A stretch of 64,000 nucleotides of DNA from Bdellovibrio bacteriovorus (GTDB lineage: Bacteria; Bdellovibrionota; Bdellovibrionia; Bdellovibrionales; Bdellovibrionaceae). This document shows, one piece after another, positions 37,139 through 62,792 of the stretch. The number at the start of each line of letters is the position of its first letter. Within the stretch, counting starts at the first letter, position 1. The stretch lies in assembly GCF_001592745.1 (NCBI RefSeq), contig NZ_LUKD01000001.1, positions 751,384 through 815,383 on the forward strand, in the 5' to 3' direction. The translations under genes and the position numbers were made by a program. The notes below the pieces were generated by a model. The model did no database searches. It saw only the letters and a list, made by a program, of their open reading frames with translations, and was not told the origin of the DNA.

Positions 37139-40100
37139 ATGAGATCCGGAACGTCCATCACATTCATTCTCATGATTTTCTTTGTTTTTTCGGCCCACTC
37201 TTCGCCGAGAACCTTCACGTATCAAGGACGTATTCTTAAATCCGACGGAACTCCTCTTGAATACAATAATGTTAGCTTTGCCTTTGAAATTACAAACGCC
37301 TCTGGAAATTGCGTTATCTATAAAGAGCAAAGAAACAATATCAATATGCAAGGGTCCGGTGGGGTTTTCGATGTTCCCATCGGCTCGGGCGTAAAACTTT
37401 ATCCGACGACAGCCGGTTATGATTTAAGAACTGCTTTTAACAATGCGGTTTCTCATAATTGTGAAGGTGGATCGACTTATCTTCCACAAGAAGATGACAT
37501 TCGTATTCTGCGCGTGCAGTTTCATGATGGAGTCGGCTGGAAAGCGATAACTCCCAACAATGAAATTCGTGCGGTGCCATTTGCTTCCTTTGCAACATCA
37601 GCGTCTAAATTGGGCGATAAAATCGCCGATGATTTCGTTTTAAAAACATCCGTTGGTGCGTGCGCCCTGGGACAGTATCTGACTTATGATGGCACAAGTT
37701 TTTCTTGTCAAAACGACGCCGGTGGCGCGGGTATGGTTAGCGATGTGAATGTGACAGCTCCGCTGACAAAAGGTGGAACGGCTTCTATTCCAAGTCTTGG
37801 CATTTCGGTAGGCACGAGTGCGGGAACAGTCGCTGCGGGAAATGATGCGCGCTTTTTGAATGCCGAACGTCTGCGTGGAGTGAATGTGTCGTCAACACTT
37901 CCGTCCTCGGGTGGACAAGTTCTTCAATATGATGGCAGCCAATGGGGTCCGGCAGCTTTAGGAATTTCGAGTATCACGGGATTGCAAACGGCTTTAAATG
38001 ACAAAGTGGCTGTCACAATGTTTCCAACGTCTTGTTCCGCAGGACAGTCTTTGGTTTTCGTCACACCGGCAAATAAGTTTGATTGCTACAATATTCAAAT
38101 CTCTGAATCGCAAATATCAGGAACGATTTCTGGCGCAAAAATTTCTGGAAATATCACTGGAAACGCCGCAGGCTTCACGGGGAATTTGAGTGGCGATGTC
38201 ACGGGAGCCCAAGCCGCAACGGTGGTTGGAAAAATTCAAGGCGTCGACATCGATACGACAGCGCCCACCGCAGGTCAGGTTTTAAAATTTGTCGGTGGCA
38301 AGTGGACTCCGGCTGCCGATATCGGGACATCTAATGCGGTTACCAATGGCGGCAACGCAACCAATATTAAGGTCGACACCAATGCGAACCGGCCCGCGAC
38401 AGGCGCCGTCGGTGACATTTACATCGCATCAGATATCAATACCACTTTCGTGGGCTCCGGCGCCGGTTGGAATACTGTCGGTACATCCAACTTAGCTTTT
38501 ACTTCAGGAACTCTGCCTATCGCGCGCGGTGGTACAAATAGTACGACAGCTTTGACGAACAATCGCGTGATGATGTCGTCAGGCGGTGCGATTGTTGAAG
38601 CCCCTGCTTTAACTGATGGACAGCTTCTAATTGGTCGAACTGGAAATTCTCCAGTCGCCGCGAATCTTGTCGCTGGCACTGGTGTGACATTGACGAATGC
38701 GGCAGGTTCAATCACTATTTCTGCAAATGGAGGACTAGCTCCAGGCGGAACTGCTGGTGGAGACCTCAGTGGCACTTATCCAAATCCGACAGTGGCAAAA
38801 ATCCAAGGAACTTCTGTTTCAGCGACGGCCCCATCAGGAACGGGACAAGTCTTACGTTACAATGGGACGAATTATGCCGCGAATTTTTTAAGTCTTGCGG
38901 ATATTCGTTCGACAGTGACTCCAGCAAATACTATTTTTCCTTCTTCACCGTGTGCAGCAGACAAGACTCTGAACTGGTCCGTCCTGACGGATACATTCAC
39001 CTGTCAGAATATTGGAATCGCGGATTCGCAAATCACTTATGCATCTAAATCAGCGAAAACTTTCTTGGCTGCTCCTACTGGGGCTGCGGGTGCTCCGACA
39101 TTTAGAACTTTAGCTTCCACAGATTTACCCACAAGTGGCGTGACTGCCGGAACTTACACTTCAGTGACTGTTGATACTTATGGTCGAGTGACCTCTGCTT
39201 CCAATCCTACAACAGCTTCTGGATATGGCATCACAGACACCTTCGTTCAGAATGGAAATTCATTCGCAGCGGGCGCCGTCTTAGGAACAAACAATGCTCA
39301 GCCTTTGAGTTTTGAAACAAATGGCACAACTCGAATGAACATTTTATCGACGGGAAATATCGGCGTGAATGTCGCGACTCCCCTGTCACCTTTGCATGTC
39401 GACGGAATATTCATGGCTGGTGAAAACAGCGAACGCGCTATTTCATTACAACCTGATGTGAGTTCAGGATTAACCGGGGCCGCTTCTGCCGCTCAAATTC
39501 GTATTTCCGAGCCCAACTTTGATGAAGGGACTGCGGGTTCCACGTTTCTGACTCACGAGTCCGATGGATCCACCGTTTTAGGAAATACAAGAAACAATGC
39601 AGGCTTATCAAGCGTGCGTTTTGTGACGACGCCAGATGCGGGTTCACCCACGGAAAGAATGCGCATTCACTCGGATGGCTCGGTGAGCGTGGGATCAACA
39701 GCCGCTCCCGTATTTATGACGGTGAATGCCGGAGGGACTGTTGCACCTTATGTTCCAACAACGGACCGAATGGCCGTGATTGGCACTGGCAACACTGTTA
39801 TTCAAGTCACGAGTCCAAATAATGCCGCTGGTGGCATTTACTTTTCGGATCCAGAAGACCGTGATCCAGGTGGGATTTCTTACTCTCATCTTTTGAATTC
39901 CATGGCATTCAGAGTGAATGACGCCATCAACATGTATATCGACTCGAACGGCTATGTCGGGGTCGGAACAACAACACCTGGGTTTAAGTTTGAAGTCAAA
40001 GGTGGAAATGCTCAGATAACTTCTAATACCACGATGGCTAATACTGGCGCCGTCGGCGGACTTCGTATTTTCAACTCGCAGTCTTCTAATGCCGCCGACT

Positions 40101-40882
40101 ATATCAACATCGGATGGATCGGTGAAAACAAATACGGAATTCAATCCGCAGATGAACTGACCAATCGTGATCTCTTTCTTAATCCGTTCGGAGGAAAAGT
40201 CGGCATTAACACGACGGCTTCAACTCATGCGTTGACGGTCGCGGGACAAGCTTATGTCACTGATGGAGCAGGCTTTGTAGAAATTCTTTCTCGCGCAGAT
40301 TCTGCACTTAATGTCACTAATGACAATGGATCTAAGCGTGGGTTCACTGTTCATCACAACGCGACCACCCTGCTATCGCAGTTCTATTATTGTCCCGGTG
40401 GCGCCTGTACCTCGAAGATGACTTTTGATTACAACGGCAATATGTGGATAGCTGGAACTTTAACTCAGGCTTCGGACCTGCGACTGAAAACCAATATCGC
40501 ACCTCTAGAAAATAGCTTGGATAAAATTCTTTCTTTGGAAGGCGTCAGTTATGACTGGAAAAATCCTGAAGGTCGAGGCCATCAGATCGGTCTTATCGCT
40601 CAAGATGTCGAAAAGGTTTTTCCCGAGGCGGTAGAAACCAATAAAGAAGGCTGGAAGGCCGTTGCTTATCAAAACTTAGTGGCTCCTTTGATTAATGCAA
40701 TAAAAGAACTTCATGCCTTGGTTATGACTCAAAATGGGAATCAAGATCGCGCTATTGCGTCCTTGCAAGAGTCTAACGAAGTTCTGAAAGCAGAAGTTCA
40801 AAACCTTTCAGAACAGAATCGTCTGCTGAAGGACGCCCTGTGTGAATCTCATCCTCAGTCTAAGATCTGTCAAAAAAAGTAA
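37139..40882 (+). CDS. Secreted MAT-like fibre protein 1, S74 chaperone C-terminus
   Basis: This is a 1247-residue secreted protein. A signal peptide (about 1-21) leads to a conserved head domain (about 24-155) with TYQGRI, GVFDVPIG and EIRAVPFA, shared with the three other fibres of this window. A long Gly/Thr/Ser-rich shaft of phage-tail-fibre-like repeats follows (DLSGTYPNPTVAKIQG, GTNSTTALTNN, VTAGTYTSVTVDTYGRVT). From residue 1112 (SDLRLK) comes an S74 intramolecular-chaperone domain with the Ser and Lys of the self-cleavage dyad. A coiled coil and a cysteine-bearing tail end the protein. It most resembles the mosaic adhesive trimer fibres of Bdellovibrio; prey binding is inferred. Confidence 0.82.
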   Translation: MRSGTSITFILMIFFVFSAHSSPRTFTYQGRILKSDGTPLEYNNVSFAFEITNASGNCVIYKEQRNNINMQGSGGVFDVPIGSGVKLYPTTAGYDLRTAFNNAVSHNCEGGSTYLPQEDDIRILRVQFHDGVGWKAITPNNEIRAVPFASFATSASKLGDKIADDFVLKTSVGACALGQYLTYDGTSFSCQNDAGGAGMVSDVNVTAPLTKGGTASIPSLGISVGTSAGTVAAGNDARFLNAERLRGVNVSSTLPSSGGQVLQYDGSQWGPAALGISSITGLQTALNDKVAVTMFPTSCSAGQSLVFVTPANKFDCYNIQISESQISGTISGAKISGNITGNAAGFTGNLSGDVTGAQAATVVGKIQGVDIDTTAPTAGQVLKFVGGKWTPAADIGTSNAVTNGGNATNIKVDTNANRPATGAVGDIYIASDINTTFVGSGAGWNTVGTSNLAFTSGTLPIARGGTNSTTALTNNRVMMSSGGAIVEAPALTDGQLLIGRTGNSPVAANLVAGTGVTLTNAAGSITISANGGLAPGGTAGGDLSGTYPNPTVAKIQGTSVSATAPSGTGQVLRYNGTNYAANFLSLADIRSTVTPANTIFPSSPCAADKTLNWSVLTDTFTCQNIGIADSQITYASKSAKTFLAAPTGAAGAPTFRTLASTDLPTSGVTAGTYTSVTVDTYGRVTSASNPTTASGYGITDTFVQNGNSFAAGAVLGTNNAQPLSFETNGTTRMNILSTGNIGVNVATPLSPLHVDGIFMAGENSERAISLQPDVSSGLTGAASAAQIRISEPNFDEGTAGSTFLTHESDGSTVLGNTRNNAGLSSVRFVTTPDAGSPTERMRIHSDGSVSVGSTAAPVFMTVNAGGTVAPYVPTTDRMAVIGTGNTVIQVTSPNNAAGGIYFSDPEDRDPGGISYSHLLNSMAFRVNDAINMYIDSNGYVGVGTTTPGFKFEVKGGNAQITSNTTMANTGAVGGLRIFNSQSSNAADYINIGWIGENKYGIQSADELTNRDLFLNPFGGKVGINTTASTHALTVAGQAYVTDGAGFVEILSRADSALNVTNDNGSKRGFTVHHNATTLLSQFYYCPGGACTSKMTFDYNGNMWIAGTLTQASDLRLKTNIAPLENSLDKILSLEGVSYDWKNPEGRGHQIGLIAQDVEKVFPEAVETNKEGWKAVAYQNLVAPLINAIKELHALVMTQNGNQDRAIASLQESNEVLKAEVQNLSEQNRLLKDALCESHPQSKICQKK

Positions 40883-40924: not shown

Positions 40925-41524
40925 ATGCACGTTTTCACTGTGACCTTGCTCTTAATAACCTCTGTAGCAACGGCGGAAGTTTGTCCCGACGGTCGCAAAA
41001 GTTCCGACTTCATTCAAGGTTCCTTGCAGTTTGTTCGCTGCCAGAACATTCAAAATGCTTACTTTGAAAAAGATCTTCTAAAGGGAGCGGACGCTTCTGG
41101 AAGCCATTTCTATAAAGTCGGATTCAACAAAGTAAATTTTGATAATGTTCAAATGACGTCCGTCGAGTTCCGGGAAAACACTTTTGAAAAAGTAACGGGA
41201 CTGAACTGGAATATTCAAAATTCGCGATGGATGGGTGGGATAATAAAAGACAGCCATCTATCCAAGAATCGCCTCGACGCTTCCAAGCTAGGTGGAGTTA
41301 AAATCTATCGTACGAATTTAAGCGAAACCTCATTGAAGGACACGACTTGGAGCAACTGTTATTTCGAAGACGTAAATCTGGAAGGCGCTGACCTACGCGG
41401 AGCCCGCTTCGACATGTGTGTCTTCTTAAACGTACGTATGAAGGGAGCTATATTTAATAAATTCACGAAGCTTCCCATTTCTGACGCTCAAAGATCACTT
41501 CAGGGCATGGTGTACTCTCCATGA
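40925..41524 (+). CDS. Exported pentapeptide-repeat protein
   Basis: This is a 199-residue protein with a signal peptide (about 1-17). The mature part has loose pentapeptide repeats, A(D/N)LxX-like units seen in KGADASGSHF, GGVKIYRTNLSETSL and NLEGADLRGARF, which fold as a right-handed square beta-helix. Cysteines flank the helix. It starts 42 bases after fibre gene 1 and overlaps the next gene by 4 bases (ATGA), so all three are probably one operon. The role is unknown; a scaffold or adaptor for the fibre is possible. Confidence 0.72.
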   Translation: MHVFTVTLLLITSVATAEVCPDGRKSSDFIQGSLQFVRCQNIQNAYFEKDLLKGADASGSHFYKVGFNKVNFDNVQMTSVEFRENTFEKVTGLNWNIQNSRWMGGIIKDSHLSKNRLDASKLGGVKIYRTNLSETSLKDTTWSNCYFEDVNLEGADLRGARFDMCVFLNVRMKGAIFNKFTKLPISDAQRSLQGMVYSP

Positions 41525-43812
41525 ACAAGACACAACGGCTGTACGGCTTCTTTCTGTCTTTGACCCACATTGTGACCCTTTGGTTTTGGCGGGCCTTTGA
41601 TTTCGATTACGGGCTGTCGCACAAGCTTCAGAATTTAGAATGGAATCCTTGGCCATTTATTCCTGAAGGGCACGTCTTATTTATTCAGGAACATGCGGTC
41701 GCGGTCACAAGTGCCTATATACTTCTGTCCTTTCTGACACCTTTACTGTTTCTGTTTGAAAAGCCTAAAGACCCCCTTCGTCTTGGCGCTTTCACACTGA
41801 CTCTATTCATTAAGCTCGCGATCTTTTTTTCCTCTTATGATTTTATGGGTAACTATCACTATATGGGGAACTTGTTGTTGGCCCTTTATGTGGTCTCTGG
41901 TGCCAATCTGCTTTTTTTACAGATATCATTAGCGCTTTTTTATTTCGGCGCCGGACTTTTAAAGTTCAATGCCGAATGGATCACGGGTTCAGCTCTTCTT
42001 CGCGAAACATTTTTGCAAGGATTCTGGTTACAGGCAGCCTGCGTTTACGTCATCTTGTTAGAAACAGTCTTGATCTGGTTTTTATTTGCCAAAAATAAAT
42101 ATCTTCGCCTTATTACTTTCGCCCAACTCGTTGTCTTTCATATTTTCAGCTGGCACATCGTCGGATTTTACTATCCGTCGGTGATGTTTCTATTACTGAC
42201 TGTATTTCTTCTTTATCGGCCTACGGATTTTAATTTCAAAAATAGCCTTCCGAAATTTGCACCGGTCTACTTTGCCCTGTTCTTAGCGGCTCAGCTCTAT
42301 CCAAAGCTGCTTAATAAGAATGAAGCTTTGACCGCCGAGGGAAGAATGCTTTCCTTGAATATGCTTGATGCCAAAACGGAATGCCTGGCATCGTTTGAGC
42401 TTCCAACCCAAGACGGATATTTGTACCTGGATCAACCGCTTTCTTACGCGATTCGCATCCGCTGTGATCCGTTGGTTTATTTTAACTATGCAAAAAAACT
42501 GTGCGCGCAATCTTCAGATGTCACTATCCCCAGCGTTAAGATAAACCTGAAATCACGCAAACAGACCGATTATCAAGACACATGGGTCATTCGCGACCAA
42601 GAAATGTGCGATAAAGAAATTACCTATTCGATCTTCCTAAATGATTGGGTTCACGCGAGTCACGAACTTTCTGCGCCGACATCAGCACCGGAAAAAGCTT
42701 ACTCGCATTGGCGGGAAAATCCGCAACGGACCGGAGAATCTCGTCATCTGATGAAAACATCGTTTACTACCACCTCGCTGCCCTTTCCTTTTCAGGAAAA
42801 CATTCACTCCGCGGGTAAATCCAGTCCAATAGCCTTTAAGAGTCTTTGGTTTGTAGGAAGCGACAGTGGTTCGTTGTACGCCTTTGATAATTCCTCTTTT
42901 CTTTGGAGAGATTACTTCCCGAAGCCTGTCTTTGGCTTTCATGGCTCTGGTGTGACCACCGAAGATGGAGATCTCTATCTTGGTGCTTACGACGGAATTT
43001 TGCATAAGATCCGCAGTAAAGATGGAAAACGAATCTGGTCCGTAAAGTTGGGAAGTGCGATTGGCTCTTCTCCCCTTTTGGTAAATGGTTCGCTTTACGT
43101 CGCGGTAGAAAATCTGCCTGATAGCAGCACTTTCTTTGCGCTGGATCCGCGCAATGGCGCCATCCGCTGGAGTTCAAATAAAATCAAGGGACTTGCCCAC
43201 GCTTCGCTGAGCTATCACGCCAAAAGTGATCAGGTATTTGGGGCCACTGGTGCGGGCGAAGTGATTTCCTTTCACTCGAGATCCGGAAAAGAAATGTGGC
43301 GCATAAGCGTCTCGGGAAAGATTATTTCTACGCCTCTAGTCACTGACGAAACAGTGGTCATTGTAAGTACAGAGGGAGATGTCCAAGCACTGAATGTTCG
43401 TAACGGGACCTTGCGCTGGCATCATCAGTTAAGCTCGGGATCTCGGGCCTCTCCTTCTTATCATTCTAAAGAAAATATCCTGATAGTTCCCTCTGAAAAT
43501 GGCGACATCACGGCTTTACAAGCTTCCGACGGGGCCGAGCTTTGGCGGAAGGTGAATGCCCACCTTCACGTATCGAGCGGACTCATTGCCCGTTACGGTA
43601 AGGTCGATGTGTATATAGATCAGTGCCAGGAAAAGACTTTGTGTTTTCTAAATGTGAAATCCGGTGCGGTGCTGGAATCTTATTCCTTACCCGATAGCTT
43701 TTCATCAACGCCTATGCTTAAAGAAGACGGGCTCTACATCACTCTTGATGGGTCAGCGGGCTTATGGCGCTTGGGTGAGAACGTAAAGACCGCAAAACAG
43801 TCTGCAAAGTAG
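41521..43812 (+). CDS. HTTM-like membrane protein fused to PQQ-type beta-propeller
   Basis: This is a 763-residue protein. The N-terminal half (about 1-250) has several membrane helices and the block ISLALFYFGAGLLKFNAEW, similar to the HTTM membrane domain of vitamin-K gamma-carboxylase-like proteins. A linker with cysteines (about 280-390) follows, then a PQQ-like propeller (about 410-755) with repeated blades such as GSLYAFD, GILHKIRSKDGKRIWS, DVQALNVRNGTLRWH and DITALQASDGAELWR. The propeller should lie on the periplasmic side. It is coupled to the pentapeptide gene. The last 74 bases overlap the convergent GT-C-like gene. This domain pairing is unusual; function unknown. Confidence 0.7.
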   Translation: MNKTQRLYGFFLSLTHIVTLWFWRAFDFDYGLSHKLQNLEWNPWPFIPEGHVLFIQEHAVAVTSAYILLSFLTPLLFLFEKPKDPLRLGAFTLTLFIKLAIFFSSYDFMGNYHYMGNLLLALYVVSGANLLFLQISLALFYFGAGLLKFNAEWITGSALLRETFLQGFWLQAACVYVILLETVLIWFLFAKNKYLRLITFAQLVVFHIFSWHIVGFYYPSVMFLLLTVFLLYRPTDFNFKNSLPKFAPVYFALFLAAQLYPKLLNKNEALTAEGRMLSLNMLDAKTECLASFELPTQDGYLYLDQPLSYAIRIRCDPLVYFNYAKKLCAQSSDVTIPSVKINLKSRKQTDYQDTWVIRDQEMCDKEITYSIFLNDWVHASHELSAPTSAPEKAYSHWRENPQRTGESRHLMKTSFTTTSLPFPFQENIHSAGKSSPIAFKSLWFVGSDSGSLYAFDNSSFLWRDYFPKPVFGFHGSGVTTEDGDLYLGAYDGILHKIRSKDGKRIWSVKLGSAIGSSPLLVNGSLYVAVENLPDSSTFFALDPRNGAIRWSSNKIKGLAHASLSYHAKSDQVFGATGAGEVISFHSRSGKEMWRISVSGKIISTPLVTDETVVIVSTEGDVQALNVRNGTLRWHHQLSSGSRASPSYHSKENILIVPSENGDITALQASDGAELWRKVNAHLHVSSGLIARYGKVDVYIDQCQEKTLCFLNVKSGAVLESYSLPDSFSSTPMLKEDGLYITLDGSAGLWRLGENVKTAKQSAK

Positions 43813-45577
43813 TCTGGTAAATTTCTTGAGCCTTGTGAGAAGGCTCCGCTTTCTGCAGAGTCTCGACGACCTTGCCTAGGTACTCAGTGCGATTTAAAGT
43901 TGTTCGATGTTGATACTGCGTAAGTTGATAAAGCAAAGACTCATAGCTTTCCGGTATCGCCTCTGTCATATTCGCTTGCAAAGCCAAATCTGCATGCAAA
44001 AGCTGCCCCGCTATGGCCACAAGAGGATGGTTGTTCTCTACTCCCCCCGGCAAAGGGGAAGGCTTTTGAATAACATCCAATGGAAAATGAATCTGAAACT
44101 GATTGCGAATGTAGCTCATCGTTAAATTTCGACAGAACAGCTCTTCTTCCGTCATTGGCCGGTTGTTAACTTCACGGTAAGCCTTTATAAGACTTTTTTC
44201 ATCACAGTTATTGGACGTTTCAAGACAATTCAAAATCTTCGGAAGAACACCTTTACAGACACCCGGTGTTGCCCACGCCATGTGATCCGAAGACTTGGCG
44301 GAAATGATTTCCAAGCGGTTTTCCAACTCCGTTAGTTTTTCGTCCTTGGATTTAGACATAAAAAGATTTCGTTCAAAATTTCGAATCAATATGTCTGAGG
44401 ATGGAATCATCAAAAGTAGTGTGGTCAGAACAGCACTCAGCGCAAGAGGTCTTTGAAACTGAGAAAGGTTTTGGCTCGCGACGTATGCAAAGTTAATGGC
44501 TAAGATCGGAAGGAAAGAATAGATAAAGCGAGCTTCTCCGGGGTTCGAGAAGAAAACAGCAGCGCACTGACAGAGAATAAATAATAGGAAAAGCCGGGTT
44601 ATCGGATTTGAAAGAATTCGCGAAGCACAGAAGAGTGTACAAAGAAATGCAAAAAGATAAAGACCACCTAAGATCTTACTGAGGGCCGTCATTCTTCCTT
44701 TCATTGGATCAGGATAGAAAGGCCCGTCAAAGATGTTCAACAAACTGCGCGACTGCAAGGCCGCCACCCACGGTCGCTCTTGCACACATGCCTTCGCCGT
44801 TTGCACATAGTAAAGCGTGTCGCGAAAGTCATTTTCTAAAAATAAAGATCGCGTTTCTCTGAGAGACCAAAATGCAGGTGGCCGAAACCAGAATGAATTC
44901 TGCTCGTTTTTAAAATCCAACGTGGGTGCCTGACACCAGGCCTGAGCGATATTGGCACCACGATTTAAATTCAAAGACGCTGTTCCTTGCCGATCAAATC
45001 GACTGTTCACAAGCGAAAGACCCGCTAGCAGAAACACCATGAGCATCAAGCCCGCCAGAGTCTGCTTGCGGGACATCCTTGTTGCCTCGGTGGAGAAAGT
45101 GAGAGCGTAGAGCGGAAAAAGCAAAAGAAACGGCAGAATGATATTTCTTAACGCGAATGAGAGACCTAATAAAATGAAAATGCCTAAATGGCGTGTCCAC
45201 AATGACACTTTGAAAGTTTCAAAGTAAAGCCCCAGAGCCAACACCGTCAGAAACTGAAAAAGGCTTTCGCTTATGTTTAACGAATTCAAATAAATCTGCA
45301 TGGGATTAAGCAACAAAAAGAGTCCTAGAACGCCGTTTTGCCATCGTGAAGAGACATTAAGATGACCCAGAAATCGATAGACCAAATAGGCGGTGCCCAG
45401 CCCTAATCCCTGATTCAGCCAATAAAGAAGACTCAAGCGATATTCTAAAAGACCGATGGAATCTAAGATTTTATAAATAAAGGCCAGCCAAACCGGATAA
45501 GAACCCCATGCCGCAAAATTTCCGAAAACTTCGCCAGAAATCACAGCCAAGGCTCGCTCATCGAAGCGAAAAGCCAT
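43739..45577 (-). CDS. GT-C-like integral membrane protein
   Basis: This is a 612-residue protein from ATG 45577 with about ten membrane helices and a large C-terminal soluble region (about 400-612). The layout and an FRFDERAL block at the N-terminus fit GT-C glycosyltransferases (the PMT/ArnT type), where an acidic DE motif follows the first helix. The ATG falls after what looks like the first helix: the same frame is open upstream to a TAG at 45686-45688 and encodes a hydrophobic run, but it contains no ATG, GTG or TTG. See the separate finding. It follows the pilin-like operon by 86 bases and may belong to it. Confidence 0.6.
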   Translation of the reverse strand: MAFRFDERALAVISGEVFGNFAAWGSYPVWLAFIYKILDSIGLLEYRLSLLYWLNQGLGLGTAYLVYRFLGHLNVSSRWQNGVLGLFLLLNPMQIYLNSLNISESLFQFLTVLALGLYFETFKVSLWTRHLGIFILLGLSFALRNIILPFLLLFPLYALTFSTEATRMSRKQTLAGLMLMVFLLAGLSLVNSRFDRQGTASLNLNRGANIAQAWCQAPTLDFKNEQNSFWFRPPAFWSLRETRSLFLENDFRDTLYYVQTAKACVQERPWVAALQSRSLLNIFDGPFYPDPMKGRMTALSKILGGLYLFAFLCTLFCASRILSNPITRLFLLFILCQCAAVFFSNPGEARFIYSFLPILAINFAYVASQNLSQFQRPLALSAVLTTLLLMIPSSDILIRNFERNLFMSKSKDEKLTELENRLEIISAKSSDHMAWATPGVCKGVLPKILNCLETSNNCDEKSLIKAYREVNNRPMTEEELFCRNLTMSYIRNQFQIHFPLDVIQKPSPLPGGVENNHPLVAIAGQLLHADLALQANMTEAIPESYESLLYQLTQYQHRTTLNRTEYLGKVVETLQKAEPSHKAQEIYQTTLQTVLRSLRSHPSAISPLTHQE

Positions 45578-51526: not shown

Positions 51527-52279
51527 ATGAACGAACTTTCAAAAATCCTGATTCGCGAGTTTGAAATGAAGCGCCAGCGAAATCTCAAATTTTCACTAAG
51601 GGCTTTTGCTAAGTTTTTGAAAACAGATGCCAGCAATCTTTCAAAGATCCTTCGTGGTGAGAGAATTCCTTCTGCTAGCTTTGCTTTGGAGCTTCTTCAA
51701 CGACTGAACATCAATACGGATGAAAGAAACATAGTCTTGAAATCACTTGTCGAAACTAAAAGTCATCTTAAAGAAGAAAAGAAAGAAAGGTCGAAAAATC
51801 TAGAACACAAAATCGTGGCGTCTTGTCATTGGCTTCACCTTATTTTACTGGAGCTCTCGCAAATAATGATTTTAACGCCAAATCAGCTTGAAAAGATCAG
51901 CCGAATTTTGAATGTCTCTTTGTATGAAGTTAAGGTGGCCTACGAGGAATTGGCAAGATGGGACTTATTAAATGAAGATGGTATCGATAATTATAGTACG
52001 ATGTGTGGGCCCATAACTGCGGAAAATCTTCGCGCGATTCAAAGACAATTTTTAAAGATGGCTGTGGATGCCATGGAAATCTACGACCTGACAGAACGGG
52101 AAAACACGACACTGACTTTCTCGATTCCCAAGGCGCACATTCCCGAAGTAAAAGAGATCTTAAAAAAGACTCGCGATCGGATCAATCGTTTATCCAACAT
52201 GAAGAAAAATCAGAAAAGCTGCATCTACAATATTTCTATGGCCCTTTATCCCGTCTGTGATAGCGCTGATCTATCCTAA
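51527..52279 (+). CDS. TIGR02147-family DNA-binding regulator
   Basis: This is a 250-residue protein. The N-terminal helix-turn-helix is LKFSLRAFAKFLKTDASNLS followed by KILRGERIP, typical of the TIGR02147 family, which is expanded in Bdellovibrio and Fibrobacter. The C-terminal half is helical and ends with a hydrophobic strand region. The start is uncertain: ATG 51527 follows AGGAG closely (3-base spacing) and matches the family's usual N-terminus; GTG 51470 adds 19 residues. It lies 100 bases upstream of fibre gene 2 in the same direction, so control of the fibre cluster is possible but inferred. Confidence 0.78.
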   Translation: MNELSKILIREFEMKRQRNLKFSLRAFAKFLKTDASNLSKILRGERIPSASFALELLQRLNINTDERNIVLKSLVETKSHLKEEKKERSKNLEHKIVASCHWLHLILLELSQIMILTPNQLEKISRILNVSLYEVKVAYEELARWDLLNEDGIDNYSTMCGPITAENLRAIQRQFLKMAVDAMEIYDLTERENTTLTFSIPKAHIPEVKEILKKTRDRINRLSNMKKNQKSCIYNISMALYPVCDSADLS

Positions 52280-55300: not shown

Positions 55301-55967
55301 TCATTCTGACGGAAATGTTGGGATTGGAACCACGGCACCTACAGGACACCTTACAGTCTCCTCTGCGGCGGCCTATACGATGATCTATAATACCAACACC
55401 TCCGCCGGCGGCCAGGCGTGGCGATGGCTTTCCTCTTCTACCGCCGCTCCTCTTGGCGCCAATGCTATGTGCTTCGCACTCGGCGCCTGTTATTTTAGTT
55501 TATATGCTTCAGGTAACGCCACCCTCTCTGGCACCCTCACTCAAGCTTCAGATGTTCGTCTTAAAAACGATATCCAACCAATCCTTAATGCCTTGGATCG
55601 AATCACAAATATTCACGGCGTGACTTATCAATGGATCGACAAAAATAAAGACCAGACAAAACAAATGGGTCTTATCGCGCAAGAAGTGGAAGCTGTTTTC
55701 CCTGAGGTCGTGAAAACGGACAGCAAGGGATTTAAATCGGTCGCTTATCAAAATCTTGTTGCTCCGATCATCGAAGCCATTAAGGAGTTGAACCATAGAT
55801 GGTCTTCAGATTCGGAAGTCATTCATAAAGAATTAGTCGCGCAAAAACGAGAGATCGCTTCCCTCAAAGAAGAAAACGAAAAACTCAAAACGCAAGTTGA
55901 AGAAATCTCTTCGATCAAAAAAGCCTTGTGCAAGCAGGATAAGAGTCTCGACTTTTGTAAAAAATAA
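52380..55967 (+). CDS. Secreted MAT-like fibre protein 2, S74 chaperone C-terminus
   Basis: This is an 1195-residue secreted fibre with a signal peptide (about 1-20), the shared head (LTYQGRI, GVFDVPIG, EIRSVPFA) and a shaft of tail-fibre-like modules: DLSGNYPNPTVAKIQN, TGTGLSGGPITSTGTISL, LPIANGGTGQ, KGAVQVGAGIAV, GGTGATSLTANRLLASN. From residue 1057 (SDVRLK) an S74 chaperone domain follows, then a coiled coil and two cysteines near the end, very like fibre 1. The head and shaft are closest to fibre 3. A terminator follows. It is probably a trimeric, surface-exposed adhesin; host range and ligand cannot be read from the sequence. Confidence 0.83.
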   Translation: MKHGTYLVLIHVFLASLGSFAAPNLLTYQGRIVKADGSALEYNNVSFLFEITNNTGACVIYREQKNGINMTNSHGVFDVPIGAGTKLFPSSPTKTLLNAFNNSTTHDCADADNNVAGSYTPAVGHTRLLRVQFHDGTGWKVISPDNEIRSVPFAAYSQSAEKLGDLGANDFIVKTGIPSCNTGEFLTWNGTALTCGAVSGASGGTVTNVTSANSYLTVTNNTSTPLLTLNVGTTANTVAAGNDPRLSDSRPPNGAATGDLSGNYPNPTVAKIQNVAVATAAPTTGQFFKFDGAQWAASAIAISDVTNLNSTFSNYHTTAAFNAAVGSANCAAYQTPYWNSVSGSFQCQAINVSVAGDVSGSIGAVSVNKIKGVDVDTTGLSSGQVLKYDGTKWAPGNDSNAGGTVTNITTGTGLSGGPITSTGTISLANTTVTAGSYTRANITVDAQGRLTAASNGSAVNLATDITGTLPIANGGTGQTNATEAFNALSPLTTKGDIVVNDGTNDIRLPVGTNGQVLSANSAQASGLQWVTPTNGTVTNVSGTAPISVSSGSTTPSISIADATTSAKGAVQVGAGIAVTSGTISADPANFPSAVPVAKGGTGATSLTANRLLASNGSGSAITAFNCATGQLLTFDATGMMTCTSFANASVFVNGGNSFAAAGTLGTNDSNALNLETNNAVRLTISAAGDLAVNTTVDTNAKLKIRSGSATQAPLSLDSPASGIPSIDFLRNGTWKGTFGFTNGAGDELYVSNGVNGPVIFDTNNDEKMRIQADGKVGIGSSGPGALLQVGAWDAQATYNSIFVGSYHNTLGQAQFVGNWNSTGYWGIGPATNPANGVVRIGNANTAGDWRATQDLALQVPGRIGLGPTVTAPERVLHIKGTGGLDDDLYIQSQHSASGEGSVIITRARDSAGAPAAVLANDSLGFLAIRGYDGSAYVQAASINAYAASDFATSKSSTMIFSTIASGTSAERMRIHSDGNVGIGTTAPTGHLTVSSAAAYTMIYNTNTSAGGQAWRWLSSSTAAPLGANAMCFALGACYFSLYASGNATLSGTLTQASDVRLKNDIQPILNALDRITNIHGVTYQWIDKNKDQTKQMGLIAQEVEAVFPEVVKTDSKGFKSVAYQNLVAPIIEAIKELNHRWSSDSEVIHKELVAQKREIASLKEENEKLKTQVEEISSIKKALCKQDKSLDFCKK
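53583..54430 (+). repeat. Fibre shaft module, copy in fibre gene 2
   Basis: This stretch encodes TGTGLSGGP through LETNN and is closely matched, in order, by 57648-58500 in fibre gene 3. The encoded proteins are nearly the same over about 280 residues. A shorter related copy is at 57277-57450. Long similar DNA in neighbouring genes could recombine. Confidence 0.8.
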
Positions 55968-56088: not shown

Positions 56089-59000
56089 ATGAGAACCGGT
56101 ACGTCGCTTATTCTATTTCTCGTTTTCTTCGCCATGCATGCAGCTGAAGCTGCTCCTGCGCTGTTCACTTATCAAGGACGTATCTTAAAAGCCGATGGTC
56201 AGGCCTTAGAGCACAACTCTGTCAGTTTTATTTTTGAAGTCACCAACCCTAATGGCACTTGCGTTATTTATCGCGAACAAAAAGACGGCATCAATATGGT
56301 GAATTCTAAAGGCGTCTTTGACGTGCCCATCGGTTCGGGCACAAAACTATTTCCAGCCGATCCGTTTTATTCCCTCTTAGACGCTTTCAATAACGCCAAG
56401 ACACATGACTGCGTTGGTGGCGCAACTTACTCGGCTTTATCCGGAGACATTCGCCTTCTTAAGGTGCAGTTTCATGATGGCAGCGGTTGGAAAGTCATTT
56501 CTCCCTCAAATGAAATTCGCACGGTTCCTTTTTCAGCTTATGCTCACTCGTCTGAAAGATTGGGCACTAAAACTGAAAATGATTTCTTCGTAAAAACAGG
56601 ATTACCCGCCTGTTCTGCCGGAGAATTCTTAAGCTGGGATGGAACTGCTCTGGGATGTGCGCCAGTATCAGGAGCCAGTGGCGGTACCGTCACAAACGTG
56701 ACTTCTGCCAACGCTTACATCACGGTTACTAGTGGGACTTCTACACCGCAATTGACTTTGAATGTGGGCACTGGAGCAGGCACCGTGGCTGCGGGAAATG
56801 ATTCGCGCTTGAGTGATGCACGTACTCCAACCGGAGCTGCCAGTGGAGATCTTAGCGGAACCTATCCAAATCCCTCCGTTGCCAAAATTCAGAATGTGAC
56901 GATCGCCAATGCCGCGCCTTCAGCGAATCAGTTTTTTAAGTTTGATGGATCACAGTGGATAGGATCCGCCATCGCTATTTCAGATGTTACAAACTTAAGC
57001 GCCACACTCGCGACTTACAAAACGAATGCTTCATTTAATACGGCAGTGGGCAGCGCGAACTGTGCGGCTCACCAAACTCCTTATTGGAATTCAGTGTCTA
57101 GTTCTTTTCAATGTCAGGCGATCAATGTTTCTGTTGCCGGAGACGTTAGCGGAACAATCGGCGCCGTTTCGGTTAATAAAATCAAAGGTGTTGATGTCGA
57201 TACAACAGGCTTAATATCTGGCCAAGTTTTAAAATACGATGGAACAAAGTGGGCTCCAGCTAATGATAGCAACGCTGGTGGAACCGTTACGAATATTGCA
57301 ACGGGCACAGGTCTTAGTGGCGGACCTATTACCACGACGGGAACTATTTCGCTTGCGAACACCGCAGTCACAGCGGGATCTTACGGTTCGACGACCCAAG
57401 TGGGAACTTTCACTGTGGATGCTCAAGGACGCTTAACTGCTGCAAGCAATACAGCAATCGCATTCCCCGTCACTTCTGTCGCAACAAAAACGGGAGCCGT
57501 CACTCTTGATTATGGTGACATTAATAGCGCCGCTTCAAAATATCTGACTTATCGTCCTAACAATGTCGCCTGTACCGACGGTCAAACTTTGAAATGGGTG
57601 ACGGCGAATTTACGCTGGGAATGTGCGAACGATACGGATACATCAAGTGGCGGAACCGTTACCAATATCGCCACAGGCACGGGCCTAAGTGGTGGTCCGA
57701 TTACTTCCACGGGAACTATTTCGCTTGCAAACACGGCAGTGACCGCGGGTTCTTATACTCGCGCAAATATCACTGTCGATGCCCAAGGCCGTTTAACTTC
57801 GGCAACAAATGGCGCCGCAATCAATCTTGCAACTGAAGTCACAGGCACCCTCCCTATTGCTAACGGCGGTACGGGACAAACTTCAGCAACAGCCGCTTTT
57901 AACGTTCTTTCTCCTCTGACAACCAAGGGTGATCTTGTTGTTAACGATGGCACAAATGATATTCGTCTGCCAGCAGGCACCAATGGACAAGTTCTTTCTG
58001 CAAACTCGGCACAAGCATCAGGCTTACAATGGGTGACACCTACTAATGGAACTGTGACCAGCGTTTCAGGAACAGCCCCTATCGCCGTCGCAACGGGAAC
58101 TTCAACGCCTGTTATTTCTATTAGTGATGCAACAACGAGTGCAAAAGGTGCCGTGCAAGTAGGCGCGGGTATTGCGGTCTCTAGTGGTACTATCAGTGCC
58201 GACCCAGCCAATTTTCCAACGGCAGTTCCCGTTTCCAAAGGCGGCACGGGAGCTACATCACTGACTGCGAATAGGCTGCTTGCATCGAATGGAACCGGAT
58301 CCGCTGTCACGGCATTTAACTGTGCGGTCGGACAGCTTTTAACATTCGATGGTACGGGAATGATGACGTGTACATCGTTTGCGAATGGCTCTGTGTTTGT
58401 AAATGGAGGCAACTCTTTTGCGGGTACAGCAACATTGGGAACGAACGATGCCAATTCACTTGTACTAGAAACTAACAACACCGCTCGAGTAACAATTCTA
58501 TCGGGTGGAAATGTCGGTATCAAAGAATCTGCTCCCGCAGGAAATTTGCACATCACTGACGCCGCGGGTGCAGACATTCGCTTACAAGACAATAACGCCA
58601 CGACCCCTGCGGCCCTCCGCATACTTTCAGAAGGTGGTGTAAACTACATCGAATCCGGTGCAAACTTCACCTCGGGTTCCGCGGCGGATCTTCACTTCAC
58701 GGATATGATGGGACAAAAACGTTGGATGACGGTTAAAGCCAATGGTTGGGTGGGTATCGGTGATACGACACCGTCCTCTCAACTAGAGGTCACAAGTGCA
58801 AGTACAAATCCTACCGTCGTTGCTCGCTTTAATATGCTTCCTGCGCCCACGGCCGATGTTGCAGGAAATCTGCACGGCTCATGGTCATCCATTACTCCAA
58901 ACAATGCCTTCAATTATACAGGCTCACTTTACGCGGCTGTGAACCGTGTTGAAACGGGAACAAGTCAAACAGGCTCTATCAATAGCGCTGTTGGTATGAC

Positions 59001-60219
59001 CGCAGATGTTTACAACAGATCTGCAGCAACATTCGGTACAGCAACGGGTGTTTATGGAGCTGTTTTAAATACTTCAACTGGTTCAATCTCTGCCGCAAGA
59101 GCTGGATATTTTACGGTAACAAACACTGGCGGTGGAACGCTCAACACTGGGTATGGCGTCTACATTGATGGCATCGCAGGCACATCCAAATACGGCCTGT
59201 ATCAGGCTGATGCTGGAGCAAACAATTACTTTGCTGGGAAATTGGGCGTCAACACGAATGCCCCTCTGGGCAACCTTCATATCGGAAGCACAGGAACTGG
59301 TGCTTTCGCCTACTCTTCCTTTCAGATGGGAAATGATGCCACGGCCACTCACAACTTTCATTGGGCGAACGAATACACGAATGGAGCGCGGTCACTGCGT
59401 CTCTATAACGGGAATCTGGGCTCAGGCACACCGTTAATGTCCGTGAATGCGGCTGGCGGAGTCACGATGGGTGAAGGAACTGGTGGCGCTGGACTTCTTA
59501 CGTTGAAACCAGGAAATATCGATCACGTTTACTTACAGTTGTTTGCGCGCACAGCATCGCCGAATACACGCTCCGCATGGATCGGTTACGGCGCAAGCGC
59601 GACGGTTGACCTTTCGATTACGAATGAGCTTGAAGGCGGCCAAATCTATTTCAACACAAAATCAGGCGGCGCTCAAAGTGCGCGAATTATCTTCGCTGCT
59701 GACGGAACGGCTTACAAACCTGGCGGTGGATCTTGGGCCGCTACTTCCGACGCTCGTCTTAAAACAGATATCAAAGATTTCAATCCGGGGCTCGAAGATC
59801 TTCTTAAAGTTCATCCGGTTAGCTTCCGCTACAACGGCAAAGGTGGGACTGTCGACGACGGTAAACACTATATCGGGGTTCTTGCACAGGAATTAGCTCC
59901 GATTGCTCCTTATATGATTCAAAAAGAAAAAGCGAAAATCAATAAGACGGACAAAGAAGAATCGGAAATTTATAAAGTGGATCCTTCTGCATTCACATAC
60001 ATGATTATCAACTCGATTAAAGAGCTTTCACAAAAGCTCTCCTCGTTCGAGAACAAAGTGAAATCCTGGTTCAACAATCATGAAGATCGTCTGCAGCGCC
60101 TAGAAAACCAGATGGTTTTATTGCAAAAGCAAAATGAAGAATTGAAAAGACAGAACGAAGAGCTTGTGAAGCATTTGAAGTCTCAAGGTGAGACACGTGC
60201 TCCGGCCTCTTCACAGTAA
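56089..60219 (+). CDS. Secreted MAT-like fibre protein 3, S74 chaperone C-terminus
   Basis: This is a 1376-residue secreted fibre. It has a signal peptide (about 1-21), the shared head with LFTYQGRI and EIRTVPFS, and a shaft very like that of fibre 2 but with one extra module (about residues 397-520) that duplicates TGTGLSGGP. Before the C-terminus it has a YGVYIDGIAGT block that also occurs in fibre 4. The S74 domain starts at residue 1220 (SDARLK) and differs from those of fibres 1 and 2; a coiled coil ends the protein. The mixed relationships suggest a mosaic built by recombination. Confidence 0.83.
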   Translation: MRTGTSLILFLVFFAMHAAEAAPALFTYQGRILKADGQALEHNSVSFIFEVTNPNGTCVIYREQKDGINMVNSKGVFDVPIGSGTKLFPADPFYSLLDAFNNAKTHDCVGGATYSALSGDIRLLKVQFHDGSGWKVISPSNEIRTVPFSAYAHSSERLGTKTENDFFVKTGLPACSAGEFLSWDGTALGCAPVSGASGGTVTNVTSANAYITVTSGTSTPQLTLNVGTGAGTVAAGNDSRLSDARTPTGAASGDLSGTYPNPSVAKIQNVTIANAAPSANQFFKFDGSQWIGSAIAISDVTNLSATLATYKTNASFNTAVGSANCAAHQTPYWNSVSSSFQCQAINVSVAGDVSGTIGAVSVNKIKGVDVDTTGLISGQVLKYDGTKWAPANDSNAGGTVTNIATGTGLSGGPITTTGTISLANTAVTAGSYGSTTQVGTFTVDAQGRLTAASNTAIAFPVTSVATKTGAVTLDYGDINSAASKYLTYRPNNVACTDGQTLKWVTANLRWECANDTDTSSGGTVTNIATGTGLSGGPITSTGTISLANTAVTAGSYTRANITVDAQGRLTSATNGAAINLATEVTGTLPIANGGTGQTSATAAFNVLSPLTTKGDLVVNDGTNDIRLPAGTNGQVLSANSAQASGLQWVTPTNGTVTSVSGTAPIAVATGTSTPVISISDATTSAKGAVQVGAGIAVSSGTISADPANFPTAVPVSKGGTGATSLTANRLLASNGTGSAVTAFNCAVGQLLTFDGTGMMTCTSFANGSVFVNGGNSFAGTATLGTNDANSLVLETNNTARVTILSGGNVGIKESAPAGNLHITDAAGADIRLQDNNATTPAALRILSEGGVNYIESGANFTSGSAADLHFTDMMGQKRWMTVKANGWVGIGDTTPSSQLEVTSASTNPTVVARFNMLPAPTADVAGNLHGSWSSITPNNAFNYTGSLYAAVNRVETGTSQTGSINSAVGMTADVYNRSAATFGTATGVYGAVLNTSTGSISAARAGYFTVTNTGGGTLNTGYGVYIDGIAGTSKYGLYQADAGANNYFAGKLGVNTNAPLGNLHIGSTGTGAFAYSSFQMGNDATATHNFHWANEYTNGARSLRLYNGNLGSGTPLMSVNAAGGVTMGEGTGGAGLLTLKPGNIDHVYLQLFARTASPNTRSAWIGYGASATVDLSITNELEGGQIYFNTKSGGAQSARIIFAADGTAYKPGGGSWAATSDARLKTDIKDFNPGLEDLLKVHPVSFRYNGKGGTVDDGKHYIGVLAQELAPIAPYMIQKEKAKINKTDKEESEIYKVDPSAFTYMIINSIKELSQKLSSFENKVKSWFNNHEDRLQRLENQMVLLQKQNEELKRQNEELVKHLKSQGETRAPASSQ
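57277..57450 (+). repeat. Extra shaft module inside fibre gene 3
   Basis: This copy of the TGTGLSGGP-to-DAQGRLT unit is repeated at 57648 onward in the same gene, about 371 bases away. Fibre gene 2 has only one copy, so an in-gene duplication or insertion is likely. Confidence 0.75.
57648..58500 (+). repeat. Fibre shaft module, copy in fibre gene 3
   Basis: This matches 53583-54430 in fibre gene 2 along its whole length at the protein level, with shared motifs TLPIANGGTGQ, GAVQVGAGIAV and GGTGATSLTANRLLASNG. Confidence 0.8.
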
Positions 60220-60251: not shown

Positions 60252-60272
60252 GTATGAAGTCGGAGGTTGTAC

Positions 60273-60560
60273 GTGAAAAAACTAATTCTGCTCTCGCTAG
60301 TAGTATTGGCTACGGGTTGTTCGATGGAAGCCTCCTTAGAGCAATTGGCGAAGGAAGTTCCGACCATTAAGTTTCAAGATCCTGCAAAAACAACGGGCTT
60401 GGTTTCTGGTTCTACACAGACGGGAACTGCGTCCGGTGGCGGTGTCACTTATCACGTGCAAAGCACAGTCGGTAACTACATGTCAGGAATCGAACAAACC
60501 ACTTCAGACAACTCTTACAAGGTTTATAGCTCCGTTCAAGGGGCGATCGTTTCTAACTAA
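60273..60560 (+). CDS. Small lipoprotein between fibre genes
   Basis: This is a 95-residue protein with GTG start (60273), CGGAGG just upstream, and a lipobox LATGC (about residues 12-16), so the mature lipoprotein is about 80 residues, mostly Gly/Ser/Thr/Val with no cysteine besides the lipid one. The family is not recognised. It is sandwiched between fibre genes 3 and 4 in the same direction with a sigma-28-like site upstream, which suggests it anchors or assists a fibre; this is inference. It has its own terminator. Confidence 0.72.
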   Translation: MKKLILLSLVVLATGCSMEASLEQLAKEVPTIKFQDPAKTTGLVSGSTQTGTASGGGVTYHVQSTVGNYMSGIEQTTSDNSYKVYSSVQGAIVSN

Positions 60561-60699: not shown

Positions 60700-60707
60700 G
60701 TCTTTAT

Positions 60708-62792
60708 ATGAAAATCTTGAGCGTTCTGGTTTTTTTCATGTCTCTATTAGGGGCTGCAACGACTCACGCAGTTCCAGGGTCTCTAACTTATCAGGGAAGA
60801 ATCAAAAATTCCGACGGACTTCCGCTGGAAGTTAATGGCGTTCGCTTTGAATTTTCTATCACGAATCCTTCGGGCTCTTGCGTACTCTATAAAGAAATAT
60901 CTTCGTCCATTGACATGCGCAATTCTTCCGGAGTCTTTGACGTGCCTATCGGAACAGGCACAAAAAATTATCCCGTCGATCCAGGATTTAAGCTCTTAGA
61001 TGCCTTCAATAATGCAGCGGCTTTGAATTGTGAAGGTGGAGGAACCTACACTCCTATCGCCGATGACAAAAGGCTTTTAAGAGTCCAATTCTATGATGGC
61101 ACAGGTTGGAAGCTCATCAGTCCCGACAGCGAAATCCGCAGTGTTCCATTTGCAGGCCATGCGCAGTACGCTGAGTCCGCGCAAAAACTAGGTTCAAATA
61201 CAGTCGCTGACTTTATTTTAAAATCCAGTGTGCCTCTTTGTGGCGCTGGCGAATATCTTCGACATATTGCGCCCGCTGGCACATTTCAATGCACAGTTCC
61301 CGTTGTGAATGGAAATGACGTCAGCGGAAATATTTCCGGTAGTTCCGCGGGCTTTACTGGAAATTTAAGCGGCGATGTCTCGGGAACTCAAAGTGCGACA
61401 AGCGTTGATAAAATCAAAGGCATCGCCGTTAATATGACGGGCCTGGCTTCTGGAAAAATTCTTAAATACAACGGAACAAATTGGGCGCCTGCAGATGACA
61501 CGGATACTAACACTGACGATAAAATCCGCGGTGTCGATGTTTCTGCAACCACACCGGTCAGTGGACAAGTTTTAGTTCACAACGGATCAGCGTGGGCTCC
61601 TCAATATTTCGGCATGGGGCAATTACGATCGACGGTTACGGGCACAGCGCAAGTTCCGGCATCGTGTTCAACTGCTGATAAAACTCTGACTTGGAATTCA
61701 ATCACAGACTCATTTGCTTGTACCACGATTGCAATCGCGAGCACTCAAGTAACAGGCCTTGGAACAGCGGCTACGAAAAACTTCGGAACCTCTTCCGGAA
61801 ATCTTGTAGAGCTTGATGGCACCGGAAGAATTCCGGCCTCACTTCTCCCTGCTTCTAGCGGAAACATCATAGATGGAGGCAACAGCACGGGCGCCACTTT
61901 GAACGTCGGCACCAACGACGGGCAAGCGCTGAATTTCGAGACCAACAATTCGGCACGAATGACTATCACGAGTAACGGAGATATTGGTATTGGCACAGCC
62001 TCCCCCGGCTATAGACTTCAGGTAAATAAAACCTCCAATGCGACGGCTGCCAGCAATATCGCTGCTTCTTTTAATTTCATGTGGGCAGCACCAACTAGTT
62101 CCAGCGCTAGTACTTTTGTCGGTCAGTATAACGGCGCTGAAAGTGACGGCACGTCGGCAGCTATCACTGGCGGTATTTTAGCGCAGATCAACTACACTCA
62201 CCACAACGGTTCAAATGCTTTAGCTAAACTCGTGGGCTCCTGGTCCGGTACTCACAATAAATCTTCGGCAACGGTGGGATCCTCACTGGCAGTTCAGGGT
62301 GAAGTGAACAATGACGCTTCGGGAGTTATTTCACAAGCAATAGGAATTCACTCGCGCATTACGAACAGCGGCAGCGGCTCGATCACGAATGCTTATGGAG
62401 TGTACGTTGATGGAGTGCAAGGGACGAACAAGTGGTCCATTTATACGAATGATCCTTCAGTGCCATCGTACTTTGCCGGTTATGTTGGTATCGGAACGAA
62501 CTCTCCAACAGCTCCACTGGATGTCAATGGAACGGTAAAGGCCACTAAGTTTTCGGTGGGTCCACAGATTGTCACCGCGACTTGCAGTAATAGCGCTGCA
62601 GCCTCTTGTATGGCCATCGCCACGTGTCCCGCGGGAAAAACACTTCTGTCAGGAGGTTATTCAACCTCTTGGGCGGCCACCAGTGTTGTTCAGTCTGCCC
62701 CCTCTTCAGGGACTACCTGGTCCTGCCAGTTTTACGGCGACAGCGCCCTCGGTCCGCATACCTGCTACGCCCTTTGCGCCAATTTCGAGTAA
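60708..62792 (+). CDS. Secreted MAT-like fibre protein 4, non-S74 C-terminus
   Basis: This is a 694-residue secreted fibre with a signal peptide (about 1-20) and the shared head (LTYQGRI, GVFDVPIG, EIRSVPFA). The shaft is shorter and includes a YGVYVDGVQGT block like fibre 3. Unlike the other three it has no S74 chaperone: the last 80 residues form a cysteine-rich domain with TCSNSAAASC, TCPAGKTLLSGGY and CYALCANFE. Similar CPAGK...GGG...CA endings occur in secreted and phage-tail-like proteins of actinobacteria and myxobacteria. How it trimerises without S74 is unclear. Confidence 0.8.
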   Translation: MKILSVLVFFMSLLGAATTHAVPGSLTYQGRIKNSDGLPLEVNGVRFEFSITNPSGSCVLYKEISSSIDMRNSSGVFDVPIGTGTKNYPVDPGFKLLDAFNNAAALNCEGGGTYTPIADDKRLLRVQFYDGTGWKLISPDSEIRSVPFAGHAQYAESAQKLGSNTVADFILKSSVPLCGAGEYLRHIAPAGTFQCTVPVVNGNDVSGNISGSSAGFTGNLSGDVSGTQSATSVDKIKGIAVNMTGLASGKILKYNGTNWAPADDTDTNTDDKIRGVDVSATTPVSGQVLVHNGSAWAPQYFGMGQLRSTVTGTAQVPASCSTADKTLTWNSITDSFACTTIAIASTQVTGLGTAATKNFGTSSGNLVELDGTGRIPASLLPASSGNIIDGGNSTGATLNVGTNDGQALNFETNNSARMTITSNGDIGIGTASPGYRLQVNKTSNATAASNIAASFNFMWAAPTSSSASTFVGQYNGAESDGTSAAITGGILAQINYTHHNGSNALAKLVGSWSGTHNKSSATVGSSLAVQGEVNNDASGVISQAIGIHSRITNSGSGSITNAYGVYVDGVQGTNKWSIYTNDPSVPSYFAGYVGIGTNSPTAPLDVNGTVKATKFSVGPQIVTATCSNSAAASCMAIATCPAGKTLLSGGYSTSWAATSVVQSAPSSGTTWSCQFYGDSALGPHTCYALCANFE

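Follow-up and report, generated by a model that had tools for sequence, protein, structure and literature searches.

The window, a stretch of 64,000 nucleotides of Bdellovibrio bacteriovorus DNA, contains four genes for secreted fibres (fibres 1 to 4, W1 to W4), which are open and intact at the positions given by a sequence-only reading of the same DNA (Table 1). The elements TYQGR, FDVPIG and EIRxVPF named there are common to all four and lie within a head of about 150 residues directly after the signal peptide. Each of the four fibres carries a signal peptide, but the claim that it is the same one did not hold: the peptides are similar, three starting with M(R/K)xGT and the fourth not. The heads of the other fibres are 54–64% identical to that of W2. 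Shafts and C-termini differ as described, with a Peptidase_S74 end in fibres 1–3 (Pfam E-values of 2e-20, 2e-18 and 1e-11, respectively) and no Pfam match for fibre 4.

Table 1. Annotated features of the fibre locus (window positions, except for the duplicated block of W3)
Feature	Position	Strand	Remarks
EamA transporter gene	36139..37026	+	left edge of conserved MAT hotspot
MAT fibre W1 (1247 aa)	37139..40882	+	signal peptide, MAT head, beta-rich shaft, S74 chaperone/protease with SDLRLK, C-terminal coiled coil
W1 head	37202-37636	+	
HTTM-PQQ protein	41521..43812	+	fused multi-TM (HTTM-like) and PQQ/BamB-like beta-propeller protein
612-aa multi-TM protein	43739..45577	-	GT-C-like by eye, no Pfam match
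Minor-pilin-like operon (331, 958, 432 aa)	45664..50849	-	lineage-specific block between W1 and W2
HTH-DUF4423 regulator	51470..52279	+	immediately upstream of W2
MAT fibre W2 (1195 aa)	52380..55967	+	head, shaft, S74 with SDVRLK, coiled coil
W2 head	52443-52892	+	
MAT fibre W3 (1376 aa)	56089..60219	+	head, shaft, divergent S74 with SDARLK, coiled coil
W3 head	56152-56586	+	
W3 shaft, internal duplicated block	nt 1188-1357 and 1560-1717 of gene		
Small lipoprotein (97 aa)	60267..60560	+	adjoins MATs in 8 related genomes
MAT fibre W4 (694 aa)	60708..62792	+	non-S74 type, cysteine-rich tip
W4 head	60771..61214	+	
VGIGTNSPTAPL motif in W4	62484..62519	+	capping-loop type, left edge of tip swap
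W4 segment replaced relative to G040	62526..62800	+	contains predicted resistin/PCSK9-like tip
g62832	62832..63629	+	signal peptide, low-complexity C-terminus; right edge of hotspot

The four genes were confirmed as members of the mosaic adhesive trimer (MAT) family of Bdellovibrio. In the HMM search, all four matched the curated NCBIfam model of the MAT N-terminal domain, NF053851 (Bdello_MAT_N), with 226–231 bits at a cut-off of 60 bits, which is far above chance level. Because of these matches and the S74 ends, the earlier suggestion of MATs as the closest known system is right, and the family is one already described (Caulton et al., 2024; PMC10769870). All four fibres have the conserved beta-rich domain of ~130 aa after the signal peptide, followed by a beta-helix shaft and a capping-loop motif akin to those of solved MATs. 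VGIGTxxPxxxL-type motifs are present in each of them, and they end either in an S74 domain with SDxxxK (W1–W3) or in a non-S74 tip (W4). In a sequence search of the PDB with W1, W3 and W4, all three matched 8ojn (Bd3182) and W4 additionally 8ond (Bd2133), with E-values of 1e-4 to 3e-5. The structure predicted for the W2 head is nearly all beta (pLDDT 87.6) and gave no specific structural match in the PDB or the viral library: VIA reached Z 6.0 at best, and no Foldseek hit had E <=0.001. This result for a model is in line with the absence of homologues noted in the literature and is not proof of a new fold.

The synteny of the site, from the EamA gene over the small lipoprotein to g62832, shows that genomes throughout the genus use it as a MAT hotspot, with 2–4 fibres at the site. 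No RNA element was found with Rfam. In total, 23 MAT heads were detected in this genome, including the four described here, and MAT heads occur in 57 of 61 family genomes. The genome carrying Bd1334 (G034) has 21 heads, the same number as the MATs published for strain HD100 (PMC10769870).

The proposed exchange of parts between the fibres was borne out, also between alleles, and the mosaicism is genome-wide. The first ~240 residues of fibre 1 are closest to a paralogue located 1.3 Mb away (C1_2105630, 65–78%), the shaft of which is ~80–91% identical to that of fibre 2. Within the window, gene conversion in recent times was ruled out for the four fibres, since the DNA they share is only 69–76% identical.

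For W4, the exchange of the tip can be followed at the DNA level. Compared with the orthologue in the sister species (G040), the DNA is ~87% identical up to window position 62525, the tips are unrelated in DNA in the segment that follows, and 90% identity resumes at 62801, just past the stop codon. The allelic replacement and its DNA edges show that the W4 tip was exchanged as a cassette, very likely after the split from the sister species. A divergence of the two tips by fast point mutation under selection could be suggested by their weak common pattern with about 34% identity, and by one other pair (C1_700947) with gradual divergence in the tip region. It is nevertheless very improbable, given the abrupt loss of identity at the motif and its return behind the gene. 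Furthermore, the tips measure about 88 and 188 aa from the break, a difference explained by gain or loss of a beta-helix module; the other tip is retained at 82% identity by G040 and G042, and W4 groups with a separate clade in the tip tree (support 1.000). The 24 genus genomes, phages and viral contigs yielded no close donor for this tip of W4, and the nearest tips, about 35% identical, belong to another genus.

A similar allelic tip swap was found for the crystallised Bd1334 of HD100, whose orthologues in two genomes (G031 and G006) bear a different tip, and the alignment of the HD100 and G031 alleles stops 13 nt into the VGIGTxxPxxxL motif. The break lies at a VGIGTxxPxxxL repeat in seven of nine tip-side events, with 2.0 expected (P about 5e-4, for a motif defined once the first examples were known, and for genomes whose relatedness makes them not fully independent). 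The fibre repertoire very likely changes in two ways: cassettes holding tip or beta-helix modules are gained, lost or replaced at this repeated motif, and blocks of the shaft undergo tandem duplication. Breaks at the capping-loop motif amount to a concrete rule for recombination. The allelic swaps, including that of HD100's own Bd1334, are natural fibre pairs which differ mainly in the tip, so that tip specificity can be tested on two real alleles.

The tip acquired by W4 is predicted to have the disulfide-rich jelly-roll fold of resistin and the PCSK9 C-terminal domain, a fold known mainly from animals and suited to a trimer. The model (mean pLDDT 75, built from 8 sequences) superimposes on PCSK9 with Z 9.6 and an rmsd of 1.8 A over 68 residues at about 15% sequence identity, the Foldseek E-value being 0.09, and the first row outside PCSK9/resistin follows at Z 6.0. 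Pfam Resistin matched the sister tips only and below its curated cut-off (E 0.0014), and a tip-only profile did not retrieve resistin or PCSK9 from the PDB by sequence. Fibrinogen gamma, obtained in that search with E 0.2, was judged a chance match. No link between resistin and Bdellovibrio fibres was found in the literature searched. If the model is correct, such a tip is not among the MAT tip folds in the main text of PMC10769870, namely novel beta-sandwiches, TNF-like, C-type lectin and S74 beta-helix domains.

The genes between the fibres had been proposed to form, together with them, an island for prey contact. In support of one dedicated machine, the fibres, the pilin operon, the GT-C-like protein and the HTTM-PQQ gene are adjacent both here and in G040, and a possible interplay of MATs and type IV pili was mentioned by Caulton et al. 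(PMC10769870). The 612-aa GT-C-like protein and the 958-aa prepilin are, on the other hand, limited to two of the 24 genus genomes (G000 and G040 for the former), the prepilin having one further distant relative at 24%; a scan of a contig collection, from which the window's own and very near genomes are possibly absent, gave no match to it. The other genomes examined have MATs at the site and lack the block. The pilin block is therefore not conserved with the fibres, as a common machine would demand; its part in the proposal, and that of the GT-C-like protein, was not sustained, and such a machine is improbable. Matters are different for the HTTM-PQQ gene, as relatives of it lie beside another MAT gene in at least seven genomes, which favours its association with the fibres; in HD100, HTTM and PQQ genes are located around Bd2872. 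It is a better partner candidate than the pilin operon, and these neighbours provide a named candidate for the missing partner of the MAT head domain.

Two further explanations concern the nature of the fibres themselves. The S74 ends match many tail-fibre families of PHROGs (E-values down to 8e-29), as would be expected if the genes were prophage or tailocin remnants encoding S74-chaperoned long tail fibres and no host adhesins. This is mostly refuted and highly improbable: each fibre has a Sec-type signal peptide and a MAT head, the head is conserved throughout most of the family as given above, neither 50,697 phage records nor the viral-contig scan yielded a match to it, and no phage genes were found around the fibres. 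A phage tail-fibre module would lie among phage structural genes and carry no secretion signal, which is not the picture at this locus. It could also be that the fibres attach to the surface or matrix of the predator itself, for example in vesicle or port sealing, and have no part in prey recognition. Some published MATs are located on the invasion vesicle or the flagellar pole, and single MAT deletions seldom alter predation (PMC10769870); as Bd2439 is published to bind prey glycans and the change of tips from one sister species to the other is in keeping with a diversification directed at external ligands, this appears unlikely, though less so than the alternatives above.

It is very likely that the locus is a genus-wide hotspot of MAT fibres with cassette turnover at VGIGTxxPxxxL, in which the tip of W4 was exchanged for one with a predicted resistin/PCSK9-like fold. 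By analogy with the MATs already published, W1–W4 may be expected to trimerise, to be displayed on the surface and to bind glycans, as may autoproteolysis and prey contact. Held on the predator surface by the conserved head, the secreted trimer would extend outward through its repetitive shaft and bind prey or self glycans with its C-terminal tip; in fibres 1–3, the S74 domain would template trimer folding and then cleave itself. A wider reading is tentative and rather doubtful as a whole: prey recognition would be diversified by recombination at the VGIGTxxPxxxL capping-loop codons, W4 would thereby have gained a trimeric tip of resistin/PCSK9 fold, and HTTM-PQQ, present in two kinds of loci, would be the assembly or anchoring partner. 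With capping-loop codons as recombination joints, the genetic modules would be the structural modules. MAT fibres are the leading candidates for the means by which Bdellovibrio recognises many kinds of prey.

Among known systems, phage S74 tail fibres and spikes such as the K1F endosialidase and the T5 L-shaped fibre share the S74 chaperone with SDxxxK and triple beta-helix modules, whereas the MAT head, the signal peptide and the cell-surface role are not phage features. A likeness to resistin and the PCSK9 C-terminal domain would consist of the predicted W4 tip fold and the weak Pfam match to the sister tips; W4 differs by its low sequence identity and as a bacterial fibre tip with no known functional link. 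The MATs of HD100 (PMC10769870) have in common with the present fibres the signal peptide, the beta-rich head of ~130 aa, the repetitive shaft, the capping-loop motif, the S74 (SDxxxK) or non-S74 C-terminus, and a multigene family with tips swapped between paralogues. In contrast, four genes lie here in one genus-wide hotspot, and the replacement of a tip is seen from one orthologous allele to the other and delimited in the DNA. Among characterised proteins, Bd1334 and Bd2133 (PDB 8oml and 8ond) are closest to W4 and share the shaft and the beta-helix motif; the W4 head is 78% identical to that of Bd1334 (G034 L145), but both relatives bear another tip domain and are longer, with 1151 and 1031 aa compared to 694 aa.

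The sequence-only reading had recognised four fibre genes (W1 to W4) with a common signal peptide and head domain, and all four ORFs were confirmed as intact at the positions given there. Each begins with a signal peptide and a head of about 150 residues containing TYQGR, FDVPIG and EIRxVPF, and each matches the NCBIfam model NF053851, titled 'mosaic adhesive trimer family chimeric fiber protein', with 226-231 bits (cut-off 60).

Mosaic adhesive trimer (MAT) genes of the window and their neighbours
Feature	Position	Description
EamA gene	36139-37026	left flank of the hotspot
W1	37139-40882 (+)	ends in Peptidase_S74 with catalytic SDxxxK; coiled coil
HTTM-PQQ protein	41521-43812	fused HTTM and PQQ/BamB-like parts; adjoins W1
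Extra block between W1 and W2		pentapeptide protein, HTTM-PQQ protein, 612-aa membrane protein, three prepilin-like genes, KH protein, DUF4423 regulator
958-aa prepilin-like protein	46656-49532	very large C-terminal part; almost no genus relatives
W2	52380-55967 (+)	ends in Peptidase_S74 with catalytic SDxxxK; coiled coil
W3	56089-60219 (+)	ends in Peptidase_S74 with catalytic SDxxxK; coiled coil
97-aa lipoprotein	60267-60560	kept next to MATs in 8 related genomes
W4	60708-62792 (+)	without the S74 end
g62832	62832-63629	right flank of the hotspot

The comparison of W4 with its orthologue in the sister genome G040 revealed a replaced tip, the C-terminal, putatively adhesive end of the fibre. 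The DNA is 87.1% identical from 60501 to 62525, alignable DNA is absent between 62526 and 62800, and from 62801 onward the identity is 90.4%. The break is located directly 3' of VGIGTNSPTAPLDV. The alternative tip is retained in both G040 and G042 (82% identical), and in the tip tree W4 groups with the tips of G043, G046 and G032, separate from those of G040, G042, G015 and G047 (support 1.000). By parsimony, the tip in the window's genome is the newcomer.

Judged from the DNA alignments, Bd1334 shows the same kind of tip change. Genome G034, treated here as HD100, encodes a protein matching the Bd1334 crystal sequence over its full length (8oml, E 4.5e-218). The gene is 83.9% identical to that of G031 as far as 13 nt into the NGNVGVG codons, the match returns 92 nt 3' of the stop codon, and the orthologues of G031 and G006 align across the entire gene. 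Since the match between HD100 and G031 is lost at the motif, the crystallised Trp-cage tip is absent from the orthologues of G031 and G006. In total, seven of nine tip-side events, merged from close pairs of related genomes, have their left edge at the VGIGTxxPxxxL motif (2.0 expected, P about 5e-4), which was defined after the first cases and resembles the published capping-loop consensus.

The proposed exchange of parts between fibres was borne out by a windowed comparison, in which the closest relatives shift along each fibre. Residues 1-240 of W1 are 65-78% identical to the paralogue C1_2105630, the shaft of which is instead about 80-91% identical to W2. The DNA identity among exchanged blocks is mostly 66-76%, so that the exchange within the genome is old. 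Between sister genomes exchange can be seen. Most of the 19 orthologous pairs between the window's genome and G040 are 88-97% identical over their full length, and the exceptions are mainly structural. C1_456023 has an additional 86-aa beta-helix module with a VGIG motif at each boundary and near-identical 17-nt DNA at its two ends (GGAAACGTCGGCATTGG and GGAAAAGTGGGCATTGG), and C1_627989 has a 67-aa module at a VGIG motif. The shaft blocks by which C1_1917176 (122 aa) and C8_182114 (292 aa) differ between both genomes look like tandem duplications.

The site between the EamA gene and the lipoprotein with g62832 is also found in G006, G031, G034, G046, G054 and G050 (cut off at its right end), with two to three MATs each, carrying tips that differ from those of the window. 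Four MATs and the extra block between W1 and W2 are present in the window's genome and G040. Of 24 genus genomes, only 2 have the 958-aa prepilin and the 612-aa membrane protein (one further prepilin is 24% identical). The pilin block at the hotspot is therefore lineage-specific and does not count as a conserved component of the fibre system. In G040 the 331-aa prepilin-like gene is divided into two ORFs (L055:9925-10921). In G042 the hotspot is interrupted inside W3: the W3 head remains on the EamA side (L062), and the W3 tail, W4 and g62832 are located behind a C1_1917176-type head at a distant place (L118), which is a rearrangement whose end falls within MAT shafts. A frameshift at shaft residue 385 divides the first hotspot MAT of G031 (L058:7288-11924), which may be a pseudogene or reflect phase variation or a sequencing error.

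For the W4-type tips, a model built from eight aligned sequences (pLDDT 75) gave PCSK9 and resistin as best Foldseek matches (E 0.09, probability 0.96-1.00). Using VIA-align, this model was superimposed on the PCSK9 C-terminal domain with Z 9.6 and an rmsd of 1.8 over 68 residues, and on resistins with Z 7.1-7.2 and a large rmsd. Perforin APC-beta domains ranked next (Z 6.0 and 5.5), and the unrelated folds below them did not exceed 5.0. Pfam Resistin matched three sister tips with E 0.0014, 0.0024 and 0.023, all under the Pfam cut-off. The resistin/PCSK9 fold is a likely prediction for the W4 tip; resistin forms trimers.

Relatives of the HTTM-PQQ protein, encoded as separate HTTM and PQQ genes, flank a short MAT on both sides in at least seven genomes (the window's genome, HD100, G042, G044, G046, G061 and G059), and the coordinates in G040, G006 and G031 fit this arrangement. 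The HTTM annotation comes from one relative, whose match to PF05090 (E 2e-4) stays below the threshold. Furthermore, G059 has a fused copy about 4 kb from another MAT (L200), and in G054 the pair is present and an adjacent MAT was not found. The bracketed MAT of HD100 has 626 aa, the same length as Bd2872, which a Tn screen identified as required for predation (PMC6561027); from length and position we infer that the two are the same protein. The HTTM and PQQ/BamB-like proteins, whose genes recur next to MATs (41521-43812; L194, L195, L196, L197, L198, L199, L200, L201), are candidate assembly or anchoring partners of MATs and a lead for the partner of the head.

Heads are encoded by 23 genes in the 3.76-Mb genome of the window. 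Of the 61 family genomes 57 have them, as do 55 of the 192 from the phylum; none was found in the phage records and viral contigs searched. A MAT-like head lies on the 161-kb Bdellovibrio plasmid pBdHM1 (AP029175.1, 90001-90276; L193), a possible vehicle for exchange.

The head model (49 sequences, pLDDT 87.6) is almost all-beta and had no specific match in the PDB or among viral models, in agreement with the published lack of a PDB homologue (PMC10769870), and the 21 heads of G034 equal the MAT count published for HD100 (PMC10769870). The shafts of W1, W3 and W4 match the solved MAT fibre Bd3182 (8ojn), and that of W4 additionally Bd2133 (8ond). Together with NF053851, these matches show that the assignment to the MATs was correct: W1 to W4 are real genes of the family that Caulton et al. 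had already reported in 2024 (PMC10769870). This analysis adds the hotspot and the replacement of tips between alleles at a defined joint, as well as a tip fold that is probably new and a candidate for the partner.
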